From positions 4,812 to 68,811 of the forward strand of contig MGZJ01000013.1 of the NCBI GenBank assembly GCA_001802645.1: a DNA stretch of 64,000 nt, in the 5' to 3' direction. The stretch's first letter is position 1; every line of letters begins with the position of its first letter. The translations under genes were made by a program, and so were the position numbers. Below the pieces are notes generated by a model. It saw nothing but the letters and a program-made list of their open reading frames with translations. It was not told where the DNA came from and ran no database searches. This DNA is from Geobacteraceae bacterium GWC2_53_11. Lineage in GTDB: Bacteria; Desulfobacterota; Desulfuromonadia; Geobacterales; Pseudopelobacteraceae. Shown piece by piece: positions 7,893-22,638 of the stretch.

Positions 7893-8879
7893 CTATCCTC
7901 CAACCTGTGACATTGTAAAATTTTTGTGAGCATATCCTTCTTCTGAGATGGCGTGCCGCTCCGGTTTGGTCGAGACGATGCAGCGCAGCGCATCAGCCAG
8001 CTTTTCCCGGTCAGGCGGTCGCAGGAAAGGAACCAGATCTGTTTTCTCATCGGAGAACAGACACCCCTTGGCCTGACCGGTGGAGGTAACGCGGATGCGG
8101 TTACAGTCGCTGCAAAAGTGTCCGGAGACGGCGGTGATGATGCCGATGCTCCCTTGGCCGCCGGGAATGCGGTAATCTCGCGACGGCCCGGCAAACGCTC
8201 CTTTGTCCACGGGCTGCAGTTCATAGCGCGAGGAAATCCGTTCCAGAATCTCGCTGCCGGGAATGCAGTAACGCTGCCAGCCGTCTTGCTTGACCGCCGG
8301 CATGTATTCGATGAACCGGATGGAGTTGCCGTGCGTCAGGGTGCGGTCGGCAAAATCGAGGATTTCGCTGTCATTGACACCGCGCATGATCACGCAATTG
8401 ATCTTGGGTGGGGGGAATCCGGCCTTCTCGGCGGCGTCAAGTCCTGCGAGCACGCTTTGCAGGCTACCGCCGCGGGTTATGTCGCTGAACGTCTCCGAAT
8501 TGAGGGAGTCGAGGCTGACATTCAGGCGCTGAACTCCGGCGTGGTACAGATCGGCGGCCATCTTCTCCAGCAGCGCCCCGTTGGTGGTCAGGGCCAGGTG
8601 GCGAAGTCCCCGAATGGCGGACAGTTGTGAGAGGAACGGGACAATGCCCTCCCTGACCAGCGGCTCGCCACCGGTGATGCGGATTTTCTCTATGCCCAGT
8701 TCAACGGCGGTTTCGGCGATCAGCAGCAGTTCTTCATAGGAAAGAATCGATTCATGCGCTTTGTGCGCAACCCCTTCCGGCGGCATGCAGTAAAAACAGC
8801 GCATGTTGCAGCGATCCGTCACCGATAAACGCAGATAATTTATGTTTCTCCCGTGGGAGTCGGTCAGCTCCATTGTCAT
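7893..8879 (-). CDS. moaA: GTP 3',8-cyclase MoaA
   Basis: A 328-residue radical SAM enzyme for the first step of molybdopterin synthesis (GTP to 3',8-cyclo-GTP). The N-terminal 4Fe-4S/SAM motif CNMRCFYC is present (CxxxCxxC). The C-terminal cluster block FCSDCNRIRVTSTGQAKGCLF is present. The protein ends in Gly-Gly, the flexible double-glycine tail needed for activity in characterised MoaA. The start overlaps the tupC stop by 4 bases (ATGA), indicating translational coupling to the tungstate transporter. Confidence 0.96.
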   Translation of the reverse strand: MTMELTDSHGRNINYLRLSVTDRCNMRCFYCMPPEGVAHKAHESILSYEELLLIAETAVELGIEKIRITGGEPLVREGIVPFLSQLSAIRGLRHLALTTNGALLEKMAADLYHAGVQRLNVSLDSLNSETFSDITRGGSLQSVLAGLDAAEKAGFPPPKINCVIMRGVNDSEILDFADRTLTHGNSIRFIEYMPAVKQDGWQRYCIPGSEILERISSRYELQPVDKGAFAGPSRDYRIPGGQGSIGIITAVSGHFCSDCNRIRVTSTGQAKGCLFSDEKTDLVPFLRPPDREKLADALRCIVSTKPERHAISEEGYAHKNFTMSQVGG

Positions 8880-9628
8880 CCTCTGGTGGTGCAGTTAAAT
8901 GAATGGGCATAGCGGGCAAAAGCAGCGCTGAAATCATCCGGTGGATTCATCAGCACTTCGTCCGGGGTGCCGCTTCCGATCAGCCGCCCTTTGTTCATAA
9001 CGGCCAGCCGGTTGCACAACTGCAACACTTCGCGGCAGTCGTGCGTGGCAATTACCGCCGTAATACCTTCTGAATGGAGCAGTTGCGTCAGCTGCAACAG
9101 TAGCGCTTCGCGCAAAGGAAGGTCAAGCGCCGTAAAAGGCTCGTCCATAAAAATAATTTCCGGCCGCATGGCAAATGCGCGGGCCAGACTGACCCGGCGC
9201 GCCTCACCTGACGAGAGCGAGCGCGCCGAACGCCTGGAGAGTCCGGTGATGCCGAACCGTTCCAGCGCTTCGTCCACACGCTCCTGCTGCTCCTTTCGCG
9301 GCGTCCCGCGCAAAGACAGTCCGGTTGCCACATTGACCGTCACCGTGGCGTCCAGCAACAGCGGTTCCTGAAGTACCATGGCAACCCTGCGCCGGTAACC
9401 CAGTTCAGCGCGCCCGCCACGAACTGCCTCGCCGTTTACCAGCAGATCGCCTTTGCCCACCGGCAGCAGACGGGCCAGGGCCAGCAGCAGGCTGGTCTTG
9501 CCCGCGCCGTTCGAGCCGATCAGAGCGAGCACGTCGTTTTCCCGTACCGTCAGGGAGACGCTTTTGAGTACATCCACCCCGCCGCGTTGCAGGGAGAGAT
9601 TCCGGGCTTCCAGCAGAGGAACTGTCAT
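8876..9628 (-). CDS. tupC: Tungstate ABC transporter, ATP-binding protein
   Basis: A 250-residue ABC ATPase with Walker A GSNGAGKTS, signature LSSGEARR, Walker B IIFMDEPFTALD and the H-loop VIATHD. It overlaps tupB by 4 bases and moaA by 4 bases. With TupA and TupB it forms an importer; the tungstate assignment rests on TupA. An operon with moaA and formate dehydrogenase genes makes supply of metal for the pyranopterin cofactor the likely job. Confidence 0.9.
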   Translation of the reverse strand: MTVPLLEARNLSLQRGGVDVLKSVSLTVRENDVLALIGSNGAGKTSLLLALARLLPVGKGDLLVNGEAVRGGRAELGYRRRVAMVLQEPLLLDATVTVNVATGLSLRGTPRKEQQERVDEALERFGITGLSRRSARSLSSGEARRVSLARAFAMRPEIIFMDEPFTALDLPLREALLLQLTQLLHSEGITAVIATHDCREVLQLCNRLAVMNKGRLIGSGTPDEVLMNPPDDFSAAFARYAHSFNCTTRG

Positions 9629-10323
9629 CGTGGCCGCCGTTTCTGCTGGATTATCGTCAGTAGCAGGTTGATCAGAAAGGTCAGCGAGAGCAGGATGATG
9701 CTGAGAGCAATGGCGGTGTCAAAGTTTCCCTTGCCGGTTTCCATGACGGTAGCGGTGGTCAGAACCCGTGTCTGTCCTTTTATGTTACCCCCCACCATGA
9801 TTGATGCTCCCACTTCGGAAATCACCCCGCCGAAACCGGCCATGACCGCTGCCAGCAGCGGCAGCCGCGCTTCCTTGATCAACAGCCAGACCATTTGCGG
9901 CCTGGATGCTCCCAAGCCGAGAATCTGCAAGCGGAGGTTGGCGGGGAGGCTCTGAATGGCGGCCATGGAGATGCCGGTGACGATGGGGGTGGCGATAACC
10001 CCCTGGGCAATAACCATGGCGGCAGGGGTGTACAGCAGCTCGAAGTGGCCGAACGGGCCGTTGCGCCAGAGGAAGATGGTCACGAACAGGCCGACTACCA
10101 CCGGCGGCAGCCCCATGCCGGTATTGACCAGCGCCGCCACCAGGCGTTTGCCCGGAAACGTGGCAAGTGCGAGAACGGTGCCCGAGCTTACCCCGATCAG
10201 CAGGCTGAGCAGCGTTGCCAGCCCTGAGACCTTGAGCGACAGCCAGGTAACCGCCAGCACCTCGCTGTCTCCGGACAGCAGCAGGCGCACGGCTTCGATT
10301 ATTCCGTCAAGAATCAGTTCCAT
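9625..10323 (-). CDS. tupB: Tungstate ABC transporter, permease
   Basis: A 232-residue inner-membrane permease of the binding-protein-dependent type. Several hydrophobic segments are visible (for example SGLATLLSLLIGVSSGTVLAL and a C-terminal FDTAIALSIILLSLTFLINLLL). The cytoplasmic coupling region is LRLQILGLGASRPQMVW, the EAA-loop equivalent. It starts 11 bases after tupA and overlaps tupC by 4 bases. Confidence 0.9.
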   Translation of the reverse strand: MELILDGIIEAVRLLLSGDSEVLAVTWLSLKVSGLATLLSLLIGVSSGTVLALATFPGKRLVAALVNTGMGLPPVVVGLFVTIFLWRNGPFGHFELLYTPAAMVIAQGVIATPIVTGISMAAIQSLPANLRLQILGLGASRPQMVWLLIKEARLPLLAAVMAGFGGVISEVGASIMVGGNIKGQTRVLTTATVMETGKGNFDTAIALSIILLSLTFLINLLLTIIQQKRRPR

Positions 10324-10334
10324 TCAGTAAGCGC

Positions 10335-11171
10335 TTACAGGCCGAGTGACGCGGGATTTTTTCCGGCATCGGGGAAGAACAGCGGAGCGCCGAATTTTTC
10401 GACGCCAAACCGGCCGATGGTTTCCTGCGTCTTTTTGGCAACCATGAAGTCGGCAAATGACTTTCCACCGGCGGCATTGATTTTGGGCCACTTGGCCGGA
10501 TTTATTTCGATGACATGGTAAATGTTGAGCAGTTTGCTGTCACCCTCGCTCAGAATAACCAGACCGAGGTTTTTCTTCAGCGCCAGAAAGGTGGCGCGGT
10601 CGGTCAGGGTGTACCCCTTCTTCTCGGCGGCCACGTTCAGAGTCTGTCCCATGCCGAGACCGGTCTGCTGATACCATTTCTGGCCGTCCGGTGAGATGCC
10701 GGCCCCTTTCCAGAGCCCCTTCTCCTTGGCGTGGGTGCCTGAATTGTCGCCGCGCGAGGCAAACAGGGCCCCGCTTTTGGCAATACGTTGCAGGGCGTCC
10801 ACAGAGTTTTTCGCCGTTTTAACCCTGGCCGGATCGCTGGTCGGGCCGACGATGACGAAGTCGTTATGCATCACCAGACGGCGGGTTACGCCGAAGCCTC
10901 CTGTCATGAATTTCTGCTCCGCTTCAGGGGAGTGAACCAGCAACACGTCCGCTTCGCCCTTTTCACCCATCTTCATTGCCTGGCCGGAACCGACCGAAAT
11001 GGTTTTGATCTTGTAACCGCTCTCTTTTTCGAACTGCGGCACCAGCACATCCAACAGCCCTGAATCCTGCGTGCTGGTGGTGGTGGCGAGAATAATGGTT
11101 TTGGGGGCGGCCAGGGCAATGCCTGTTGCCGCCAGCAGGATTACAGCACACAATGAAATTAGTTTTTTCAT
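10335..11171 (-). CDS. tupA: Tungstate-binding periplasmic protein TupA
   Basis: 278 residues with a Sec signal peptide (KKLISLCAVILLAATGIALAA). The mature N-terminus ILATTTSTQDSGLLDVLVP is the TupA signature, distinct from ModA, so tungstate is the expected ligand. Other TupA-like blocks are SRGDNSGTHAKE and LTDRATFLALK. The start at 11171 has GGGAGGG upstream. A longer in-frame extension to 11474 runs through the riboswitch/terminator leader and is rejected. Expression is probably controlled by the leader at 11197-11433. Confidence 0.92.
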   Translation of the reverse strand: MKKLISLCAVILLAATGIALAAPKTIILATTTSTQDSGLLDVLVPQFEKESGYKIKTISVGSGQAMKMGEKGEADVLLVHSPEAEQKFMTGGFGVTRRLVMHNDFVIVGPTSDPARVKTAKNSVDALQRIAKSGALFASRGDNSGTHAKEKGLWKGAGISPDGQKWYQQTGLGMGQTLNVAAEKKGYTLTDRATFLALKKNLGLVILSEGDSKLLNIYHVIEINPAKWPKINAAGGKSFADFMVAKKTQETIGRFGVEKFGAPLFFPDAGKNPASLGL

Positions 11172-11196: not shown

Positions 11197-11233
11197 AAAC
11201 AAAAACGCCCCTTCTCTCGATAGAAAAGGGGCG
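11197..11233 (-). terminator. Intrinsic terminator in the tupA leader (riboswitch expression platform)
   Basis: On the minus strand, CGCCCCTTTTCTATC pairs with GAGAGAAGGGGCG and is followed by TTTTTGTTTT. It lies 26 bases before the tupA start codon and after the putative aptamer, so it looks like an attenuator rather than a gene-end terminator. Its 5' arm contains CCCCTTTTC (11223-11231), exactly complementary to GAAAAGGGG at 11272-11280 just upstream, a candidate antiterminator. Confidence 0.8.
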
Positions 11234-11271
11234 CGGACAGACCACGGGCAGTGGCGCGTCTGGCACGAATT

Positions 11272-11433
11272 CCCCTTTTCATCCTGAATAGACAGGATAG
11301 TTCGTTCACGAAGTTTTTGCGGGACACCGCAATAAACTTCTGACTCACTAAAGGAGGGTGGCGCTGTTTCCGGCGGCACCCGCAGGTTACGGGCCGTGAG
11401 GATGTATCCCTGGTAGGCGGCGTAACTCGGAGA
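11272..11433 (-). promoter_or_regulatory. Candidate molybdenum/tungsten cofactor riboswitch upstream of tupA
   Basis: The minus-strand RNA shares a conserved core with the fdnG1 leader: CTCCGAG, then a variable stem (GTTACG/CGTAAC), CTGCGGGTG, a GGAAAC (GNRA-type) loop, and CCTCCTTTAGTGAGT. Two further hairpins follow, with arms that differ in sequence but pair in both leaders, and then GAAAAGGGG. The Moco RNA motif is known upstream of molybdate/tungstate transport, Moco synthesis and Moco enzyme genes. I recognise this as that class from context and partial recall of its consensus, not from a model search. The core aptamer is about 11341-11433. Confidence 0.7.
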
Positions 11434-11451
11434 ATGGTGAAATAAAGCGGA

Positions 11452-11481
11452 ACTATACTGGTACGATGCAGCATCTGACAA
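11452..11481 (-). promoter_or_regulatory. Sigma-70-type promoter for tupA operon
   Basis: Minus-strand TTGTCA (11476-11481) and TATAGT (11452-11457) are separated by 18 bases, placing the transcript start near 11445, about a dozen bases before the putative aptamer. A 28-base dyad (TGAC...GCTGAA-ta-TTTCAGC...GTCA) covers and extends upstream of the -35 and may be an operator. This lets the tup-moa genes be transcribed independently of the fdn operon. Confidence 0.6.
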
Positions 11482-11500
11482 GCTGAAATATTCAGCGTGG

Positions 11501-12838
11501 TCAGGTGGAGCGGGATATTTTCTGGTAATCCTCCGGTGTGTTGACGTTGCGGAATGAGGCATAATCGGGATCCAGCGTGGCAATCTTGCCGCGCGGTACC
11601 AGCCGGACGTGCGCCAGATCAAAAAACGAGAGGATGCGCCGCTCTCCTGCCCGCAGCATCGCCTCCATCTTGGCAAGGCAGCTTTTGGCATAGACGGCGT
11701 GCAGCGGTTCCAGGCCGCCGGGGGTCTCGGGGATAACCACGTCAACTCCGCCCGGCATGCTGCTCAACTCACGGATCAGGCGGGGATTGAGCCCCGGCAT
11801 GTCGCAGGCGGTGACAAAGGCGCGACCGGCGCTGCAGCTTGAGAGTGCGGCGTGGATGCCGCCCAGCGGCCCCATACCGGGAAAAATGTCGGCAATCTTG
11901 CGGCAGGGAATGAAGTCGTAGATTTCAGGTGTATTCGTGACCAGCAGCACTTCGTCGAACAGTTCGGTCATGCGGCGGTAGGCGGTTTCCACCATCCGTT
12001 CGCCATTGACCTCCATGAGTGCCTTGTTCCGTCCCATGCGGCTCGATTCGCCTCCGGCAAGGATTACCCCCGCGATGTCGGAGAAACGTTCGCGCGGCGT
12101 CATCCTGAGCCGTTCCGGGCAGGCCGCGATACGGAAGCTTTCGCCCCGTACATAACCGACCAGGCCGATGCCGTGCTCAGTGCAGATGCGTACCGCCATG
12201 TTGGTCGGCGATGTGCGGGAGGCGACCAGGGCTATTCCCAGCGATGCCGCTTTGGATGCCAGTTCGGTTGATACCCGGCCGGAGGTAAGCAGCATGCGTC
12301 CGGTCAGGTCGATTCCGGCGAAGAGCGCCTGTCCTGCCAGCCGGTCGATGGTGTTGTGACGCCCCAGGTCTTCTGCATGCAGCAGTATTTTGCTGCCGTC
12401 GCTGATCGCCGCCGAGTGGATGCCGCCATGGCGGCCATAGCGCTCGGAAAGCTGGCCCATCTCCCGCATGGCGCTAAAGACCGCCTCTGCCGGAAAGGTG
12501 GCGTCCGGGGATGCCTGTTTCGGTACTCCGGCGTTGAAGGAAAACGAGATGCCGGTTCCGCACCCCGAGGTGAGCACCGGGGTGAGCCGTTCCGGCAGCT
12601 CTCCCCGGATACGGATGCTGGCTTCGCCGGAGTCCTCGCACACCCCCATGGCCAGGAAATCGCCCAGTTCGCGCACAAAACCTTGGGTGCGCAGAAAACC
12701 TGCCACCAGAAATCGTAGCTCGTGGGGGGATGCCACCAGTGTGGCAATGTCGCGGCCATTGACGGTGAGCTTGACCGGGAATTCTGCCGGAAACTCATCC
12801 AGTATTTCAGTGATGATGCCTTTGTCGTAACGGAGCAT
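11501..12838 (-). CDS. FdhD-MobA fusion: formate dehydrogenase sulfur carrier plus molybdopterin guanylyltransferase
   Basis: 445 residues. The first ~255 are FdhD (DEFPVKLTVNG-type start, TSGCGTG with the sulfur-relay cysteine, HGGIHSAA, HAEDLGRHNTIDR, SGRVSTELASKAA). FdhD moves sulfur from a cysteine desulfurase to the Mo/W cofactor of formate dehydrogenase. The remainder is MobA (AGVILAGGESSRMGRNKAL, TACDMPGLN, EPLHAVY), which attaches GMP to molybdopterin. Fusing the two would couple cofactor nucleotide addition to sulfuration. A second, stand-alone mobA lies at 26952. The start at 12838 follows AGAGGAC; the more upstream in-frame ATG (12898) falls in a repeat. Stop at 11501. Confidence 0.9.
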   Translation of the reverse strand: MLRYDKGIITEILDEFPAEFPVKLTVNGRDIATLVASPHELRFLVAGFLRTQGFVRELGDFLAMGVCEDSGEASIRIRGELPERLTPVLTSGCGTGISFSFNAGVPKQASPDATFPAEAVFSAMREMGQLSERYGRHGGIHSAAISDGSKILLHAEDLGRHNTIDRLAGQALFAGIDLTGRMLLTSGRVSTELASKAASLGIALVASRTSPTNMAVRICTEHGIGLVGYVRGESFRIAACPERLRMTPRERFSDIAGVILAGGESSRMGRNKALMEVNGERMVETAYRRMTELFDEVLLVTNTPEIYDFIPCRKIADIFPGMGPLGGIHAALSSCSAGRAFVTACDMPGLNPRLIRELSSMPGGVDVVIPETPGGLEPLHAVYAKSCLAKMEAMLRAGERRILSFFDLAHVRLVPRGKIATLDPDYASFRNVNTPEDYQKISRST

Positions 12839-12885
12839 AAACGTGTTTGTCCTCTGAGCAGAACCAATTTTCAGTAATAACGGCC

Positions 12886-12962
12886 AAATCCCTCTCAATC
12901 TCCCCTTATCAGGGGAGACTTCAAGGCTTCCCCCCTGACAAGGGGGGATTGAGGGGGGTTGG
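12886..12962. repeat. Family B palindromic repeat, copy 2
   Basis: The left arm CAATCTCCCCTTATCAGGGG and the right arm CCCCCCTGACAAGGGGGGAT face each other, each being itself a small hairpin, with an outer CCCTCTCAATC / GATTGAGGGGGG pairing. It separates fdhE from fdhD-mobA inside an otherwise tight gene run, so it may act as a transcript-processing or attenuation hairpin. Confidence 0.75.
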
Positions 12963-12973
12963 TTTTAGGCGGG

Positions 12974-13813
12974 CTATTTACCCCGCTCAAAGCCTTCCTG
13001 TGCTGCCAGCAGGTCCAGGTGGATCGTGAGCAGGTCTTCTATTTCCAGCGGCGTATCCACGCTTCCTTTGCGCGAATCCCGCGTCTTGATGTAGCGGCTG
13101 CACGCCTTGCAGGTATCTACCCGTGTGGCGCCTTCTCCGGCGGTGAAATAGGAGAGCTGTTCCGGTTCGTCGCAGCCGCAATAGGCGCAGGTCAGGCGCT
13201 TGAACTGCCAGCTGAAGGAACAGGCCGAGCAGGAGAGCATGCGCCGTCCCTCCTCGCCGGATAATTCAGCCATGCCGGCCCGGGAACCGCACACCGGGCA
13301 GAAACTTTCCTGCCATGCGGCAAACTGTCCGGCGGGGTATCCGGCGGAAAAAGCTTCCAGGCTGGTCTTGAGGGGAATCTCAAAGATATATTCAACCAGC
13401 GGGGCGGGAACTGTCAACTCGTTTGCCAGATCATTAATCGGCGCGCGGTTCCGTTCCAGGATGGCACGAAAGAGTGCGCCCGGATCAACGGAGCCGCTGC
13501 TGAGGGCAGCAGAGATTTTCCGGAGATATTCGTCATGCTCCTGCCCTTTGTCGGATAGTACGTCAATAATCCCGAGCAGAAAGGCAACGCTCTGCTGGCG
13601 GTTAAGCTTCAGGTCGGAGCTGTTCATCAGGGGGAGGGACTGTCCGGTCCGTTCCTGTGCATCGGAGGATGTTTCAAATGATATGCCGGTCTGCTGTTCC
13701 TTGCCGTCAACATAGTCATAAATGCCGATGAACAGAGGCACTATTTCGGCGTATTCAGGGGATGATTTTGCGGCCTGCTGCAATGCAGCTATTTTTTGTT
13801 CCGTTGAAGGCAT
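12974..13813 (-). CDS. fdhE: Formate dehydrogenase accessory protein FdhE
   Basis: 279 residues. The C-terminal half has the FdhE rubredoxin-like metal-binding cysteine pairs: FCPVCGS, LSCSACS, TCAYCG and TCKACSRY. FdhE is needed for assembly and activity of respiratory (FdnGHI-type) formate dehydrogenases in enterobacteria and binds iron through these cysteines. It sits directly downstream of fdnI1 in the module 1 operon. The N-terminal region is variable, as usual for the family. Confidence 0.92.
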   Translation of the reverse strand: MPSTEQKIAALQQAAKSSPEYAEIVPLFIGIYDYVDGKEQQTGISFETSSDAQERTGQSLPLMNSSDLKLNRQQSVAFLLGIIDVLSDKGQEHDEYLRKISAALSSGSVDPGALFRAILERNRAPINDLANELTVPAPLVEYIFEIPLKTSLEAFSAGYPAGQFAAWQESFCPVCGSRAGMAELSGEEGRRMLSCSACSFSWQFKRLTCAYCGCDEPEQLSYFTAGEGATRVDTCKACSRYIKTRDSRKGSVDTPLEIEDLLTIHLDLLAAQEGFERGK

Positions 13814-13902
13814 GGTAACTCCTCTGTGCAGGGTGGCTACATCAAGGGCGGCCTTAATTCAGGCCGCCCCGCGATTATAGCAGAGTAACATGAGATGCGA
13901 TA

Positions 13903-14520
13903 TTACGGATTTTCTCCGGTGGTTTCCTTGTACCATTTGGGGTGGTGCTTCTTAGCCCAGCCCCGTTTGACATCGCCGTACAGCATGGCGTCTATCGTGC
14001 CGGGGTTGCCGATGGTGGCCAGATAGACATGCACGATCACGAACATGATTGAACCGACAAACATCAGGCCGTGAGTGAGCAATGAAATCTGGACGATCCA
14101 GCGCGGGAACAGCGTCGGCGCCCAGATAAATACTCCGGTCACGCCGAGAACGGCGGTCGCGGCGGCGACATACAGGGCAAACAGTTTCTGTCCCGGATTG
14201 TATTTGCCGATGTTGAAGTGGGCGGCGTCGCGTGAAAGATACCCACCCCTTTTTTCAACCCATGCCTTGTCATCCTGGTCAAATGTGGAAACGTCTTTCT
14301 TGTGGTTGAGATACATGTAGATGGAGCTGCAAAAGAAAATGACTCCGCCGATCTTATGCACCAGGATGGCATTCTGGCCGCCGCCGAACAGGTTGAAATA
14401 GCCGTTGAACAGCCGGGAATACAGGCCAAGCCCAGACAGGAGCAGGGTAAAGAAACTGGCCGTGACAATCCAGTGCAGAACACGCTCGCTGGTGCTGAAA
14501 CGCTCGATATAGTTACTCAT
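13903..14520 (-). CDS. fdnI: Formate dehydrogenase cytochrome b subunit (FdnI-like)
   Basis: A 205-residue membrane protein with four hydrophobic helices: ERVLHWIVTASFFTLLLSGL, AILVHKIGGVIFFCSSIYMY, FALYVAAATAVLGVTGVFI and LLTHGLMFVGSIMFVIVHVY. The histidines in the first, second and fourth helices fit b-type heme ligation in the FdnI/cytochrome b556 family. It would pass electrons from FdnH1 to the quinone pool. The start at 14520 overlaps the fdnH1 stop by 8 bases. Module 2 lacks this subunit and uses an NrfD-type protein instead. Confidence 0.92.
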   Translation of the reverse strand: MSNYIERFSTSERVLHWIVTASFFTLLLSGLGLYSRLFNGYFNLFGGGQNAILVHKIGGVIFFCSSIYMYLNHKKDVSTFDQDDKAWVEKRGGYLSRDAAHFNIGKYNPGQKLFALYVAAATAVLGVTGVFIWAPTLFPRWIVQISLLTHGLMFVGSIMFVIVHVYLATIGNPGTIDAMLYGDVKRGWAKKHHPKWYKETTGENP

Positions 14521-15301
14521 GGCCGTCTCCCTTCCCTGTCTCGTCATCGATCTTTTTCGGGCCGATGGTTACATAATGCAGCAGCATGGCGCCGATACTC
14601 CCCCAGAAGCCGAGGATGCCGAGCGGCTTGATCACGTCCTTCCAGAGGAAAATGGACATCGGTATGCTCGGCTTGGCGGGCAAGCCGTATTGTTCCGGCG
14701 GCCCCTCCAGGGCATATACCACCCCCAGTCCCAGCAGGTCGTTTTCTCCATAGAGCGTCTTTTTAGCTGCCGTTGCCTTGGCGATCAACTGGCTGCGGTT
14801 GCCGAATTTGAGCGACTCGGTCGGGCACGCTTTGGCGCAGGCCGGGGTCATGCCCCCTTCAATGCGGCTCTGACAGAGGTTGCATTTGGAAACCTTGTCA
14901 TTGGCGTCATAGCGGGGGACGTTGAAGGGACAGGCTGATACGCAGTATTTGCAGGAAATGCACTTTTCCTTGTTGTAGGCGACAATGCCGTCCTTGGTGC
15001 GGTAGAGGGCGCCGGGGGACGGGCAGACCTTCATGCAGCCTGCGTCGCCGCACTGCATGCAGCGCTCGTTGAGGAACTGCCAGGAAACCGCCCCGGATGC
15101 TTCGCTTTCCACGAACCGGATGCGGTTGAACAGTGCCGGTGTCAGGTCGCGCGGATTTTCGAACGTCCCCTTGTTGGAGGTTATGTCGGCATCGGTCTTG
15201 TTCCACTGCTTGCAGGCCACCTGACAGGAACGGCAGCCGATGCAGCGCGATGTGTCCACGAGAAATCCCTTGCGGGTAGCTTGATTGATGGTGTCGGCCA
15301 T
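14513..15301 (-). CDS. fdnH: Formate dehydrogenase iron-sulfur subunit (FdnH-like), module 1
   Basis: 262 residues with four 4Fe-4S cysteine sets: CIGCRSCQVAC, CMQCGDAGCMKVC, CISCKYCVSAC and CNLCQ...CAKAC. A single C-terminal hydrophobic helix (PLGILGFWGSIGAMLLHYV) anchors it to the membrane, as in FdnH. It carries electrons from the pyranopterin subunit to cytochrome b. It starts 3 bases after fdnG1 and overlaps fdnI1. There is no signal peptide, consistent with export as a complex with the Tat signal of FdnG1. Confidence 0.94.
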   Translation of the reverse strand: MADTINQATRKGFLVDTSRCIGCRSCQVACKQWNKTDADITSNKGTFENPRDLTPALFNRIRFVESEASGAVSWQFLNERCMQCGDAGCMKVCPSPGALYRTKDGIVAYNKEKCISCKYCVSACPFNVPRYDANDKVSKCNLCQSRIEGGMTPACAKACPTESLKFGNRSQLIAKATAAKKTLYGENDLLGLGVVYALEGPPEQYGLPAKPSIPMSIFLWKDVIKPLGILGFWGSIGAMLLHYVTIGPKKIDDETGKGDGHE

Positions 15302-15304
15302 GGC

Positions 15305-18300
15305 TTACCCCTTTCTCGCGATCCCGACCATAAACGCCTTGGTCTCCGGGATCATCGTATTGGCATCGCCCGCAGTAGGGGTCAGCAGATTAGCGGCGTC
15401 GCCCACGCCGGGGGTGTGCCAGCCGAAGCACCAGGGCATGCCAACCTGATGAACGATTTTGTCACCGATTTTAAACGGTTTGATACGCGACGTGACCATT
15501 GCCACCGCCTCGATCTTGCCGCGCGCCGACGATATTTCAATCATATCGCCATTGCTAATGTTCTTCTCCTTGGCGAGTTCGTTACTTATTTCACAGAACT
15601 GTCGTGGCTGGAGTTCCAGCAGCCAGGGGGTATTGCGGGTCATGACGCCGGTCTGCCAATGCTCGGTGACCCGGTAGGTCGAAGCGACATACGGGAAGCG
15701 GCTGTCATTGGTCGCCAGCACGTCCTCTTTGACGGCAGCGTCTTTGAAGATCTTGCTGGCCGGGTTGCTCATCTGCTTGGACATGAGATTTTCCGGGAGC
15801 GGTGATTCCACCGGCTCGTAATGTTCCGGGAAAGGCCCATCTTTCATGCCGGCGCCAAAAATCGCGGCAACCCCGTCGGCACGCATGATAAACGGCTTTT
15901 TACCCTCTTTTTCATCTGCCATCGGCGGCCATGGCCCGTCCGGCACGTCCCCCACCCAGGCGCCTGTTTTGCCGTTCGGCAGCGGCGCATTCGGATTCCA
16001 GTACACCACCGCTTTTTTCAGGTTAAACGGCTTGCCGTTAACGTCGCAGGAAGCGCGGTTATAGATGATGCGGCGGTTAACCGGCCAGCACCAGCTCCAC
16101 TCCGGAAACATGCCAAGCCCGGTCGGATCTTTCTTGCCTCGTCGGGCCATCATATTCCCTTTTTCGTTGTAACTCTGGCTGTAGATCCAGTTGCCGCACG
16201 AGGTTCTGCCGTCAGCCTGCAGCTGGGCAAAACCGCCGGTCAACTCTCCCTTTTTACCGAGCATTTTTTTCGGTGTGCCGGGAGGCGGTGGCGGCGGCGC
16301 TTTTTCACCAGGTTTCAGTTTCGGTATATCTTCGACATCCTCAAGGAAATAGCCGTTGATTTCCTTGGCAACGGCGTGAACATCAACACTCTTGATCGTG
16401 CCGTCAGCCCGTTTAAAGCCATAGTTCCAGGTAAGGTTGGTCAACTGTTCCGGCAACGCCCCCCCCTCTTTGGCATACATCTCCTTCAGCTTCTGGTACA
16501 GCTCATGGATGATTTCGGCATCCGGCTTACTCTGTCCGAGCGGGTTCACCGCTTTATAACGCCACTGCGCCCAGCGCCCGGAATTGGAAATACTCCCCTC
16601 CTTTTCAAAAGAGGCGGCAGCCGGGAGGAGAAACACTTCCGTCTTGACCGATGCGGAATCAACGCCCGGTCCTTTCCAGAAGGAAGCGGTTTCATTGTCA
16701 AACAGGTTGACCGCTACCATCCAATCCAGCTTGGCAAGAGCATTGCGAACTTTGGTGGTATTGGTCCCGGAACAGGCGGGGTTCTGCCCCCAGGCAAAGA
16801 ACCCCTTGAACTTCCCTTTGATCATATTGTCAAAGATCATCAGCCACGACCCGTTCATCCCCGGATCGAGCTTGGGAAGCCAGTTGTAGCCGAAATCGTT
16901 CTCCTTGGTCGCCTTGGCGCCATAAATCGCCTTGAGGTAGCTGATCAGGTATTTGTTGCGGTTCCCCCACCAGTTGGCGCTTTGGGGATCCTTGGTTTTC
17001 GGGGTGTATTTTTCAATATAGGCCGCCGTATCCTTCAAATCACCTGAAGGGACGGGGAGATAACCGGGGAGGATGTGGAACAGCAGTCCCTGGTCCGTAG
17101 AGCCCTGAACATTCCCCTCTCCGCGCAGGGCGTTGATGCCGCCGCCGGCAATCCCGATATTACCAAGAAGAAGCTGGATGATGGACATGGCGCGGATGTT
17201 CTGGGTGCCGACCGTGTGCTGGGTCCACCCCATGGCATACAATTCCGTGCCCGCCTTGTCCGGCTTTCCGGTGGAGGCGTACAACTTGTACACTTCCAGC
17301 AGCTTATCCTTTGGTGTGCCGGTAATTCTGCTGACCAGTTCCGGCGTGTAGCGGGAATAGTGCTTCTTCATCAGCTGGAAAACGCAATTGGGGTCCTGTA
17401 GCGTCGGATCCTTTTTGACGCTGTCATCGGCGTTCTTCTGGAACGACCACGCTTTGACGTCGTAACTGCGCTTCTTTGCGTCATAACCCGAGAACAGACC
17501 TGCCAGGTCGCCCGGCATTTTGAAGTCGGCATTCACGAGATAGGCTGCGTTGGTATAATTTTTTACATACTCTTCAAAGTGGAGTTTGTTCTGGACGATG
17601 TAGTTGATCATCCCCCCCAGAAAAGCAATATCGGTTCCCGAGCGGAGAGAAGCGTACACGTCTGCTTTTGAAGCGCTACGCGTAAAGCGGGGATCAACCA
17701 CAATCACTTTTGCCCCGGCGTCCTTCGCCTTCATGATCCAGCGGAAGGAGATCGGGTGGTTTTCAGCGGGGTTTGCCCCCATGATAAGAATTACATCAGC
17801 GTTCTTTACATCAATCCAGTGGTTCGTCATTGCACCGCGTCCGAACGACTCTGCCAGAGCCGCAACTGTTGCGCTGTGTCAAATGCGGGCCTGATGTTCA
17901 ATATACACCAGGCCTAACCCCCTCAGGAATTTTTGGTACAGATAACACTCTTCATTATCCATGGCGGCGCTGCCGACAGATGCGATTCCCATGGTGCGGT
18001 TGACGATTGCTTCAATCTCTTTGTCAACCTCGGCATTGCCGACCTTTTCCTTGATCTTGATCTTTGAGGTTGCCACAAAACTGGTGTCGCGGGTTTTTTT
18101 AACCTTCTTGGCTATCTCGTCAACAGCCCAATCCCAGGAAACCTCTTTCCACTCGGTTGCGCCTGCCGCGCGATAGAGCGGCTTGGTGACGCGCGCCTTG
18201 TTGTCGCGAAGCTGATATACCGACGACCCTTTGGGGCAGAGCGCCCCCTCATTGATCGGATGATCGGGATCACCCTCGACATTGATGATGTTGCCCCCCA

Positions 18301-18481
18301 GCGTATGCACTATCATGCCGCAACCTACGGCACAATACGGACAGATGCTGGTGGTTTCCTTAGCGTAGCGGATGGGCAGATCCTCAGCCTTGGCCTCGAC
18401 GGGAGCGAGGTTGTAACCGAGGGTGGCCGCCGCCAGGCCGGAACCGGAGAGCTTGAAAAAATCTCTGCGTGATACCGCCAT
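15305..18481 (-). CDS. fdnG: Selenocysteine formate dehydrogenase catalytic subunit, module 1
   Basis: A 1058-residue selenoprotein read through an in-frame UGA at 17879-17881 (Sec201). Sequence on both sides of the UGA is continuous homology (...EHQARI-U-HSATVAALAESFGRGAMTN). Residues 1-35 hold a Tat signal (AVSRRDFFKLSGSGLAAATL). The 4Fe-4S ligands CPYCAVGCGMIVH...ALCPKG and typical molybdopterin-dinucleotide blocks follow. It oxidises formate in the periplasm using a Mo- or W-bis-pyranopterin cofactor. The start at 18481 has AAGGAGG upstream. Expression probably depends on a sigma-54 promoter near 18.9 kb and a cofactor riboswitch/terminator in the leader. Confidence 0.95.
17842..17881 (-). 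promoter_or_regulatory. Bacterial SECIS element of fdnG1
   Basis: Immediately after the UGA on the minus strand, the RNA can fold with a TTGC/GCAG upper stem and a GGCTCTG apical loop. The Gly/Cys-Ser-Leu coding and loop resemble the GGUCU-type loop of formate dehydrogenase SECIS hairpins recognised by SelB. SelB, SelA and tRNA-Sec are all encoded nearby. Confidence 0.65.
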
Positions 18482-18495
18482 TGCTGGACCTCCTT

Positions 18496-18530
18496 CAAAA
18501 ATGGTTGTTATCGTTGCCGATGCCAACCAT
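18496..18530 (-). terminator. Terminator-like hairpin in the fdnG1 leader
   Basis: On the minus strand ATGGTTGGCATCG and CGATAACAACCAT pair around a GCAA loop with an internal mismatch, followed by TTTTTG. It ends 15 bases before the start codon and just before the AAGGAGG ribosome-binding site, as expected for riboswitch-controlled transcription attenuation. Confidence 0.65.
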
Positions 18531-18695
18531 CCCCTTTTCAGCCCCTGATACGGGGTAGTTCGTTAACGATCTATTTTCTGAAAAACCTGCAGAACATAGA
18601 TTTTAACTCGCTAAAGGAGGGCGCCGCCGTTTCCAGCGTCACCCGCAGGCAGCATGCCATAGAAACCGCTTCCGTAGGCTGGTGCTGCTCGGAGA
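18531..18695 (-). promoter_or_regulatory. Candidate molybdenum/tungsten cofactor riboswitch upstream of fdnG1
   Basis: The core (about 18604-18695) has CTCCGAG, a stem GCAGCA/TGCTGC that differs in sequence from the tupA copy but pairs equally well, CTGCGGGTG, a GGAAAC loop and CCTCCTTTAGCGAGT. Next come a long variable hairpin (18568-18601), the conserved AACGAACTA, a short hairpin (CCCC/GGGG) and GAAAAGGGG. Compensatory changes between this leader and the tupA leader support a selected RNA structure. The class assignment (Moco/Tuco) rests on gene context and remembered consensus. Confidence 0.7.
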
Positions 18696-18902
18696 TGGAT
18701 ACGTGTTTTTAAAATATGCCGAATGTTGTGCTTAACCCTGCAAAAGTAAAACATTTGTCTGGAACTTTGTAAATGATGCATTGTATCATCGTTATACTAT
18801 GGATCTGTTTGGTTATCAATGGCATGGTCAATAAAAAAATCAATTATTCTGAGCGTGTCAAGCCATTATGTAGTAACTATGATACGACTAATCTCTCGTA
18901 TG

Positions 18903-22540: not shown

Positions 22541-22638
22541 TGGCGGAAGCACATGGGAATCGAACCCACCGAGGAGATTTCTCATCCCCCCCACCGGTTT
22601 TGAAGACCGGGCAGCCCGCCAGCGACTGATGTGCTTCC
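22541..22638 (-). tRNA. selC: tRNA-Sec (anticodon UCA)
   Basis: A 98-base tRNA with the long acceptor and variable arm typical of selenocysteine tRNA. The acceptor 5' GGAAGCAC pairs with GTGCTTCC and G-CCA is encoded. The anticodon loop CTTCAAA carries TCA, which reads UGA. The T-arm has GGTTCGATTCC. It lies opposite to and just before selA-selB, and serves the two Sec codons in fdnG1 and fdnG2. Confidence 0.96.

Follow-up and report, generated by a model that had tools for sequence, protein, structure and literature searches.

A dispersed palindromic repeat in the P5 loop of two putative tungsten/molybdenum cofactor riboswitches of a Geobacteraceae bacterium

Results

Genes and leaders in the window

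The window (the whole 64,000-nucleotide stretch analysed) carries two operons on its minus strand, each preceded by a structured leader. The first comprises tupA, encoding a tungstate-binding protein (10335..11171), tupB (9625-10323), an ABC ATPase gene 3' of tupB (8876-9628) and lastly moaA (7893-8879). MoaA exceeds its NCBIfam cut-off at 364 bits. TupA (248.7 bits, cut-off 400, sole match) and TupB (168.7 bits) remain the best-fitting names, although both scores lie below the NCBIfam equivalog cut-offs. The second operon begins with fdnG1 (15305..18481, minus), encoding the alpha subunit of formate dehydrogenase-N, in which codon 201 (TGA) is read as selenocysteine; the portion downstream of the TGA matches TIGR01553 with 1162 bits. 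Other window genes encode a MOSC protein, an FdhD-MobA fusion and an FdhE-like protein. The FdhD and MobA domains are joined in one protein (11501-12838, minus) that sits between the tup and fdn operons, and a tRNA-Sec gene (22545-22638, minus; RF01852, 74.2 bits) lies about 4 kb from the selenocysteine formate dehydrogenase.

A preliminary description of this DNA reported conserved segments in the leaders of tupA and fdnG1, and we find these in both, on the minus strand and in the order claimed. Its assignment of both leaders to the Moco RNA class, for which a covariance search had been proposed, is backed by Rfam, by architecture and by gene context. RF01055 matches the fdnG1 leader at 18706-18588 (minus) with 37.3 bits, above the cut-off of 36, and the tupA leader at 11444-11321 (minus) with 34.3 bits, below that cut-off (E 1.2e-6 in a short scan). 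The scores are low because RF01055 mis-aligns the 3' half and cuts the RNA short. P1 is in fact closed by GAAAAGGGG (canonical GGAAAGGAG), which lies far downstream, outside the Rfam 3' end. Judged from P1, the true aptamer limits are about 11435-11269 (tupA) and 18698-18527 (fdnG1). P1, P2, P4 with a GAAA tetraloop, the receptor bulge and the conserved junction letters of RF01055 are all present, upstream of tupABC-moaA and fdnGHI. Of the family's short P5 hairpin, a variable part outside the defining core, only two base pairs (UC/GA) are left, and a repeat forms its loop.

In the tupA leader, a consensus scan gave a candidate promoter with a -35 element TTGTCA (11476..11481, minus) and a -10 element TATAGT (11452..11457, minus), which together match 10 of 12 positions; one site was found where 0.3 were expected. 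Transcription from this putative promoter would begin near the first aptamer base. The remaining features are all on the minus strand. The 5' strand of P1, AUUCUCC (11429..11435), runs into the conserved CUCCGAG and pairs with GGGGAAU (11269..11275), which overlaps GAAAAGGGG at 11272-11280. The RF01055 alignment places P2, with a tetraloop-receptor-like bulge, at 11386..11426, and P4 (GGGUG..GGAAAC..CACCC, with a GAAA tetraloop) at 11356..11381 with no P3 before it. An insert in the P5 loop (11281..11352) contributes the extra helices P5a (11298-11350) and P5b (11282-11297). Downstream lies an intrinsic terminator of 13 pairs plus a U tail (11201..11234), whose 5' arm CCCCUUUUC (11223..11231) is a perfect complement and the putative anti-terminator partner of GAAAAGGGG.

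The fdnG1 leader, likewise on the minus strand, has the same plan. P1 is formed by CCAUCUCC (18691..18698) and GGGGAUGG (18527..18534), P2 with its tetraloop receptor (CCUACGG..CUAUGG) occupies 18649..18688, and P4 with a GAAA tetraloop, again without P3, occupies 18619..18644 in the RF01055 alignment. The P5-loop insert (18540..18615) forms P5a (18556-18613) and P5b (18542-18555). A conserved aptamer strand, CCUCCUU (18614..18620), is the alternative partner of the fdnG1 Shine-Dalgarno sequence AAGGAGG (18489..18495) in the minimum free energy fold without ligand. Directly 5' of that Shine-Dalgarno sequence stands a hairpin, AUGGUUG-N16-CAACCAU (18501..18530), that has AUGG in common with P1, so the two are mutually exclusive.

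Unconstrained single-sequence folding of nearly every homologue (one, L013, being the exception) yields the full P1 together with P2, P4 and the two extra helices. Nine genomes of the family contain exactly AACGAACTA-N-GAAAAGGGG, compared with almost no matches for a reversed control pattern, so it is not a chance resemblance; in a pattern scan of genome contigs, matches outside the lineage were mostly due to chance, judging by record titles. Nine copies, including both in the window, were used to build a model of the complete variant (R1), which scores the window copies at 167 and 146 bits and copies outside the training set at up to 178 bits.

Ligand and subclass

A third Moco RNA of this genome (L001 1501-1618, contig G000:C75; 51.9 bits) has a normal short P5 and precedes an aldehyde:ferredoxin oxidoreductase gene. 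P3 is absent from all three Moco RNAs, its positions being deleted in the RF01055 alignments of fdnG1 and tupA. In the main-text passages of Regulski et al. 2008 (PMC2408646), the absence of P3 is the hallmark of a putative tungsten-cofactor (Tuco) group, through a correlation with tungsten metabolism. The preliminary description had suggested the tungsten-cofactor variant. The missing P3 and the genes fit that suggestion, but the link between P3 and tungsten that underlies it is a published correlation only. With three of three RNAs lacking P3 and standing by genes for a tungstate importer, formate dehydrogenase and aldehyde:ferredoxin oxidoreductase, the sequences are consistent with the Tuco subclass, whose marks are P3 absence and tungsten genes such as tupA and AOR. 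That the RNAs instead sense the molybdenum form or an intermediate is unlikely in view of this P3-less set and its neighbours, although the same source describes an E. coli RNA that responds to Moco, and the P3 rule is correlative. From sequence and context, the ligand of both leaders is most likely a tungsten/molybdenum pyranopterin cofactor.

The P5 insert is a dispersed repeat

Across homologues, the P5 loop sits between CCUCC and GAAAAGG and its size is bimodal, at either 3-4 nt or about 70-82 nt, with about 153 nt in two nested cases. The window inserts measure 72-76 nt, replace the P5 loop and are framed by CCTCCTTTAG, AACGAACTA and GAAAAGGGG. P5a is closed at its base by UAGUGAGUU/AACGAACUA and P5b is formed by UCCUG..CAGGA. 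At the P5a base a K-turn was also considered, and judged by eye a tandem G.A fits the letters better. The shared segments of the preliminary description are real, but CCTCCTTTAG, AACGAACTA and GAAAAGGGG bound a mobile repeat in the P5 loop, not an ordinary part of the aptamer.

This became apparent because R1 matched many stand-alone places through its insert part only. The repeat is about 85 nt long, with the consensus TTTAGTAAGTTAGAAGTTATTTTCTGCGnTTTTCnGGCAGAAAATAACTTCGTTAACGCACTTATCCTGTTTATCAGGGYTAGG. A second model (R2), built from 20 stand-alone copies, independently recovers the tupA insert (11276-11352, 41.2 bits, E 8.7e-7) and the fdnG1 insert (18536-18615, 32.4 bits, E 7e-5). On stand-alone copies, which occur in both orientations with no aptamer around them, R2 reaches 111 bits (E ~1e-21). 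By this model, 52 of 141 genomes of the order, from 12 of 29 genera, carry the repeat, with a patchy spread: some congeners have none, while others often have more than 15 and up to at least about 32 copies per genome. A class-wide search gave no repeat-bearing genome outside the order among the matches listed.

Of 55 copies read, 13 overlap a long open frame and the others do not. At the left junction, 14 of the 55 show TCCT, a tetramer counted 0, 0 and 2 times in adjacent control stretches, and GGAG is frequent on the right side. By its TCCT on the left or GGAG on the right, the repeat tends to lie next to Shine-Dalgarno sequences. The aptamer's own conserved GCCCUCCUUU would offer the same kind of target as the TCCT junctions. 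Both ends of the repeat are often TAG (..TTTAG / YTAGG..), and an exact target duplication was not established in the copies read. In one relative (L099, 877-961 and 1055-1242), a cobalamin riboswitch (109.5 bits) is followed after about 94 nt by a stand-alone repeat that directly precedes the gene.

In its many near-identical palindromic copies, patchy spread, empty sites and nesting, the repeat is MITE/REP-like. A Y1 transposase (RAYT) was considered as its mobiliser, and none of the repeat copies adjoins any of 32 PF01797 loci; no mobilising enzyme was found. A plasmid or phage origin was likewise looked for and gave no match, and the stand-alone repeat matched no Rfam family.

Empty sites and direction of movement

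Some orthologous leaders lack the insert. Empty fdnG sites (L063, L067, L070, L071) carry GCCCTCCTGT(T/A)GAAAAGGGGATGG or a sequence near it, and empty sites before transport and other genes (L061, L062, L064-L066, L068, L069, L072-L075) mostly carry GCCCTCCTTTGAAAAGGGG. Rfam scores of empty relatives are 46-58 bits (54-58 for L061, L063 and L067), compared with 34-37 for the window copies; the P5-loop insertion is what leaves insert-bearing copies near or below the Rfam thresholds. We read 21 insert-bearing Moco RNAs in sequence, in 15 genomes that all belong to the window's family, and no further ones were found elsewhere in the order among the matches listed. R1 scores 20 of these sites at 97-190 bits and the other, L097, at 82 bits.

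Younger-looking insertions are seen in other Moco RNAs, namely an AOR leader (L060), a tandem pair (L095) and L097. In L097 (910-1135, contig G066:C72) a single Moco RNA holds two elements, one in the P5 loop and a reversed copy in the P2 loop. In L095 (~960-1410, contig G068:C39) two near-identical tandem Moco RNAs each have a P5 insert and each precede a terminator. Nested elements occur in the P5a or P5b loops of L235 (1501-1657), L058 (1613-1694) and L059 (1433-1585), where the hosts are resident or stand-alone repeat copies, and L083 has tandem repeat copies.

In a tree of aptamer cores, 14 fdnG aptamers form one clade (support 100/99), within which insert presence switches at least four times; it switches at least four times within the tup leaders as well. 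That one insertion accounts for all fdnG leaders is weakly rejected (p-AU 0.036), and for tup it is not rejected (p 0.095). On the insert tree, resident inserts, which have derived letters, do not separate from older stand-alone copies. The stand-alone copies, the empty orthologous sites, the nesting and the use of P2 as well as P5 loops lead us to read the insert as the arrival of a dispersed repeat. Very probably, the repeat once inserted beside the conserved CCUCCUUU and left P1, P2, P4 and a 2-bp P5 intact.

Alternatively, the long P5 might be a lineage-specific feature of otherwise ordinary Moco/Tuco riboswitches, and the repeats elsewhere in the genomes either chance look-alikes or offspring of the riboswitch. 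The derived letters (GTGAG.., GAACTATCC) are common to fdnG and tup residents, as in an old intrinsic part, and a single clade of resident fdn and tup inserts is not rejected on the insert tree (p 0.37). We nevertheless regard this account as very improbable: it is largely refuted by the orthologous leaders with a 3-4 nt loop, and it fits poorly with the strength, both orientations and aptamer-free setting of the stand-alone copies or with elements lodged in other Moco RNAs, in their P5 and P2 loops, and within the repeat itself. Our reading is that the leaders are P3-less Moco-class riboswitches whose P5 loop holds a dispersed, roughly 85-nt palindromic repeat kept as P5a/P5b, and we give it a probability of around 0.8.

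Constraint on the insert

The preliminary description held that stems differing in sequence pair in both leaders through compensatory change. This is borne out over 15 sequences: 42 cells show two-sided change where shuffles give 15.6, and for the insert helices alone the figures are 15 and 4.3, in counts that use an alignment fitted to the model and shuffles blind to relatedness. None of 500 shuffles reaches the 15 two-sided insert changes observed. Over 15 non-nested variants, the 20 base pairs of the insert are intact in 93% of cells, while sliding controls drop to 36-50% pairing. Pairing is no proof of insert function, because the stand-alone repeat keeps its pairing too.

Whether the insert is simply junk, a neutral passenger of a permissive loop that leaves sensing unaffected, is close to an even question, which we judge slightly against. 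The repeated switches between presence and absence in both leader types speak for it, as does the toleration of younger and nested insertions. Set against these are the maintenance of insert pairing despite divergence, the excess of two-sided changes over shuffles, and a mean identity over 15 copies of 71% in the insert, near the 79% of the core. Moreover, in two genomes (G121 and G081) the best remaining repeat copy is the riboswitch copy, and the few others are weak. Retention need not mean selection, since some resident inserts may be recent. The sequence comparisons favour an insert that is structurally tolerated and kept under some constraint. More tentatively, and on balance doubtfully, the repeat may have been domesticated as a structural riboswitch module that goes preferentially into the conserved CCUCCUUU, forms P5a with a closing helix containing GA/GA and tunes how paralogous ON and OFF switches sense their ligand.

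Proposed switching of the two leaders

A terminator-like hairpin had been described after each leader. For tupA this holds (13 bp stem and U tail), but for fdnG1 the scan called no terminator. In nearly all tungstate/transport leaders, with or without the insert, a U-tailed hairpin has in its 5' arm a stretch of 8-10 nt perfectly complementary to GAAAAGGGG, with a spacing of 31-36 nt in all but one; as exceptions, one leader gives a 7 nt complement only and one has no called U-tailed hairpin. As GAAAAGGGG can pair either within P1 or with the terminator arm, the tup leaders are predicted to be ligand OFF. Cofactor would stabilise P1 and pull GAAAAGGGG off the terminator arm, the terminator would form and transcription would stop, so that plentiful cofactor would lower tungstate uptake.

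In fdnG leaders, the AUGGUUG hairpin is exact in 13 of 14 cases and maintained by G-U pairing in the 14th, with a U run of 2-5; its folding energy in the window leader is -13.9 kcal/mol. The unliganded minimum of the fdnG1 leader (-79.9 kcal/mol) has this hairpin formed and CCUCCUU paired to the Shine-Dalgarno sequence. In an energy calculation on this one leader, forcing P1 costs 7.3 kcal/mol and sets the Shine-Dalgarno sequence free. The exclusion of P1 by the hairpin, the weak U run, the lack of a called terminator and the folding energies point to ligand ON control through translation. Without cofactor, the hairpin would displace P1 and CCUCCUU would mask the Shine-Dalgarno sequence; with cofactor, P1 would be restored and the Shine-Dalgarno sequence released, and the enzyme would be made when its cofactor exists. 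We infer this model from the energies of one leader, with a Shine-Dalgarno/CCUCC pairing that is generic.

A role of the fdnG hairpin as terminator was considered and is unsupported, as the scan finds none and the U run in relatives is only 2-5 nt. A weak terminator acting on transcription, or OFF control in both leaders, seems improbable: UUUUU does follow the window hairpin, but the run is only 2-3 in half of the relatives. Termination at this hairpin would still mean ligand ON, because the hairpin excludes P1. On these models, the ligand probably has opposite effects on the tupA and fdnG1 leaders.

A conserved upstream peptide starting from the AUG after GGGG was also considered and rejected, as the frame is not kept. 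The AUG right after GAAAAGGGG opens a frame (MVGIGNDSNHF..) that is fused to fdnG in three relatives only (L053, L005 and L011).

Discussion

The aptamer described here belongs to an established riboswitch class, and what appears to be new is the presence of a repeat in its P5 loop. A mobile element has entered the ligand-binding domain of a riboswitch repeatedly, apparently without destroying it, and close relatives supply natural pairs with and without the insert, so the effect of an aptamer insertion is directly measurable. Within one gene cluster, tungstate uptake is apparently governed by an OFF switch and an enzyme that uses the cofactor apparently by an ON switch. We found no precedent for a repeat inside a riboswitch aptamer in the main texts searched, which came mostly from freely accessible journals.

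Among known RNAs, the closest likeness is to the P3-lacking group of RF01055. As described in the main-text passages of PMC2408646, that group also has CUCCGAG, P1, P2 with a tetraloop receptor, a GAAA-capped P4 and no P3, along with tungsten or molybdenum metabolism genes and terminator or ribosome-binding-site expression platforms. The difference is that here a 70-150 nt repeat (P5a, P5b) takes the place of the short P5 loop, on a UC/GA P5. Those passages report tandem Moco RNAs in G. metallireducens and make no mention of a P5 insert in Moco RNAs.

As an element, the repeat resembles the REP/MITE-like BOX, RUP and SPRITE of pneumococcus (PMC3049150) in being short, palindromic, multicopy, intergenic and self-nesting. 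BOX has been found between two T-box RNAs, whereas the repeat here lies inside the aptamer's own P5 loop. Abundant intergenic palindromic families are also known from the same bacterial group, as the Geobacter multicopy sequences (PMC2700814, PMC2996986) and the Chunjie MITE. Compared by description, the Chunjie MITE is longer (178-235 bp in the account given in PMC10969869, against about 85 nt here). The repeat may be identical with one of the families listed for Geobacter.
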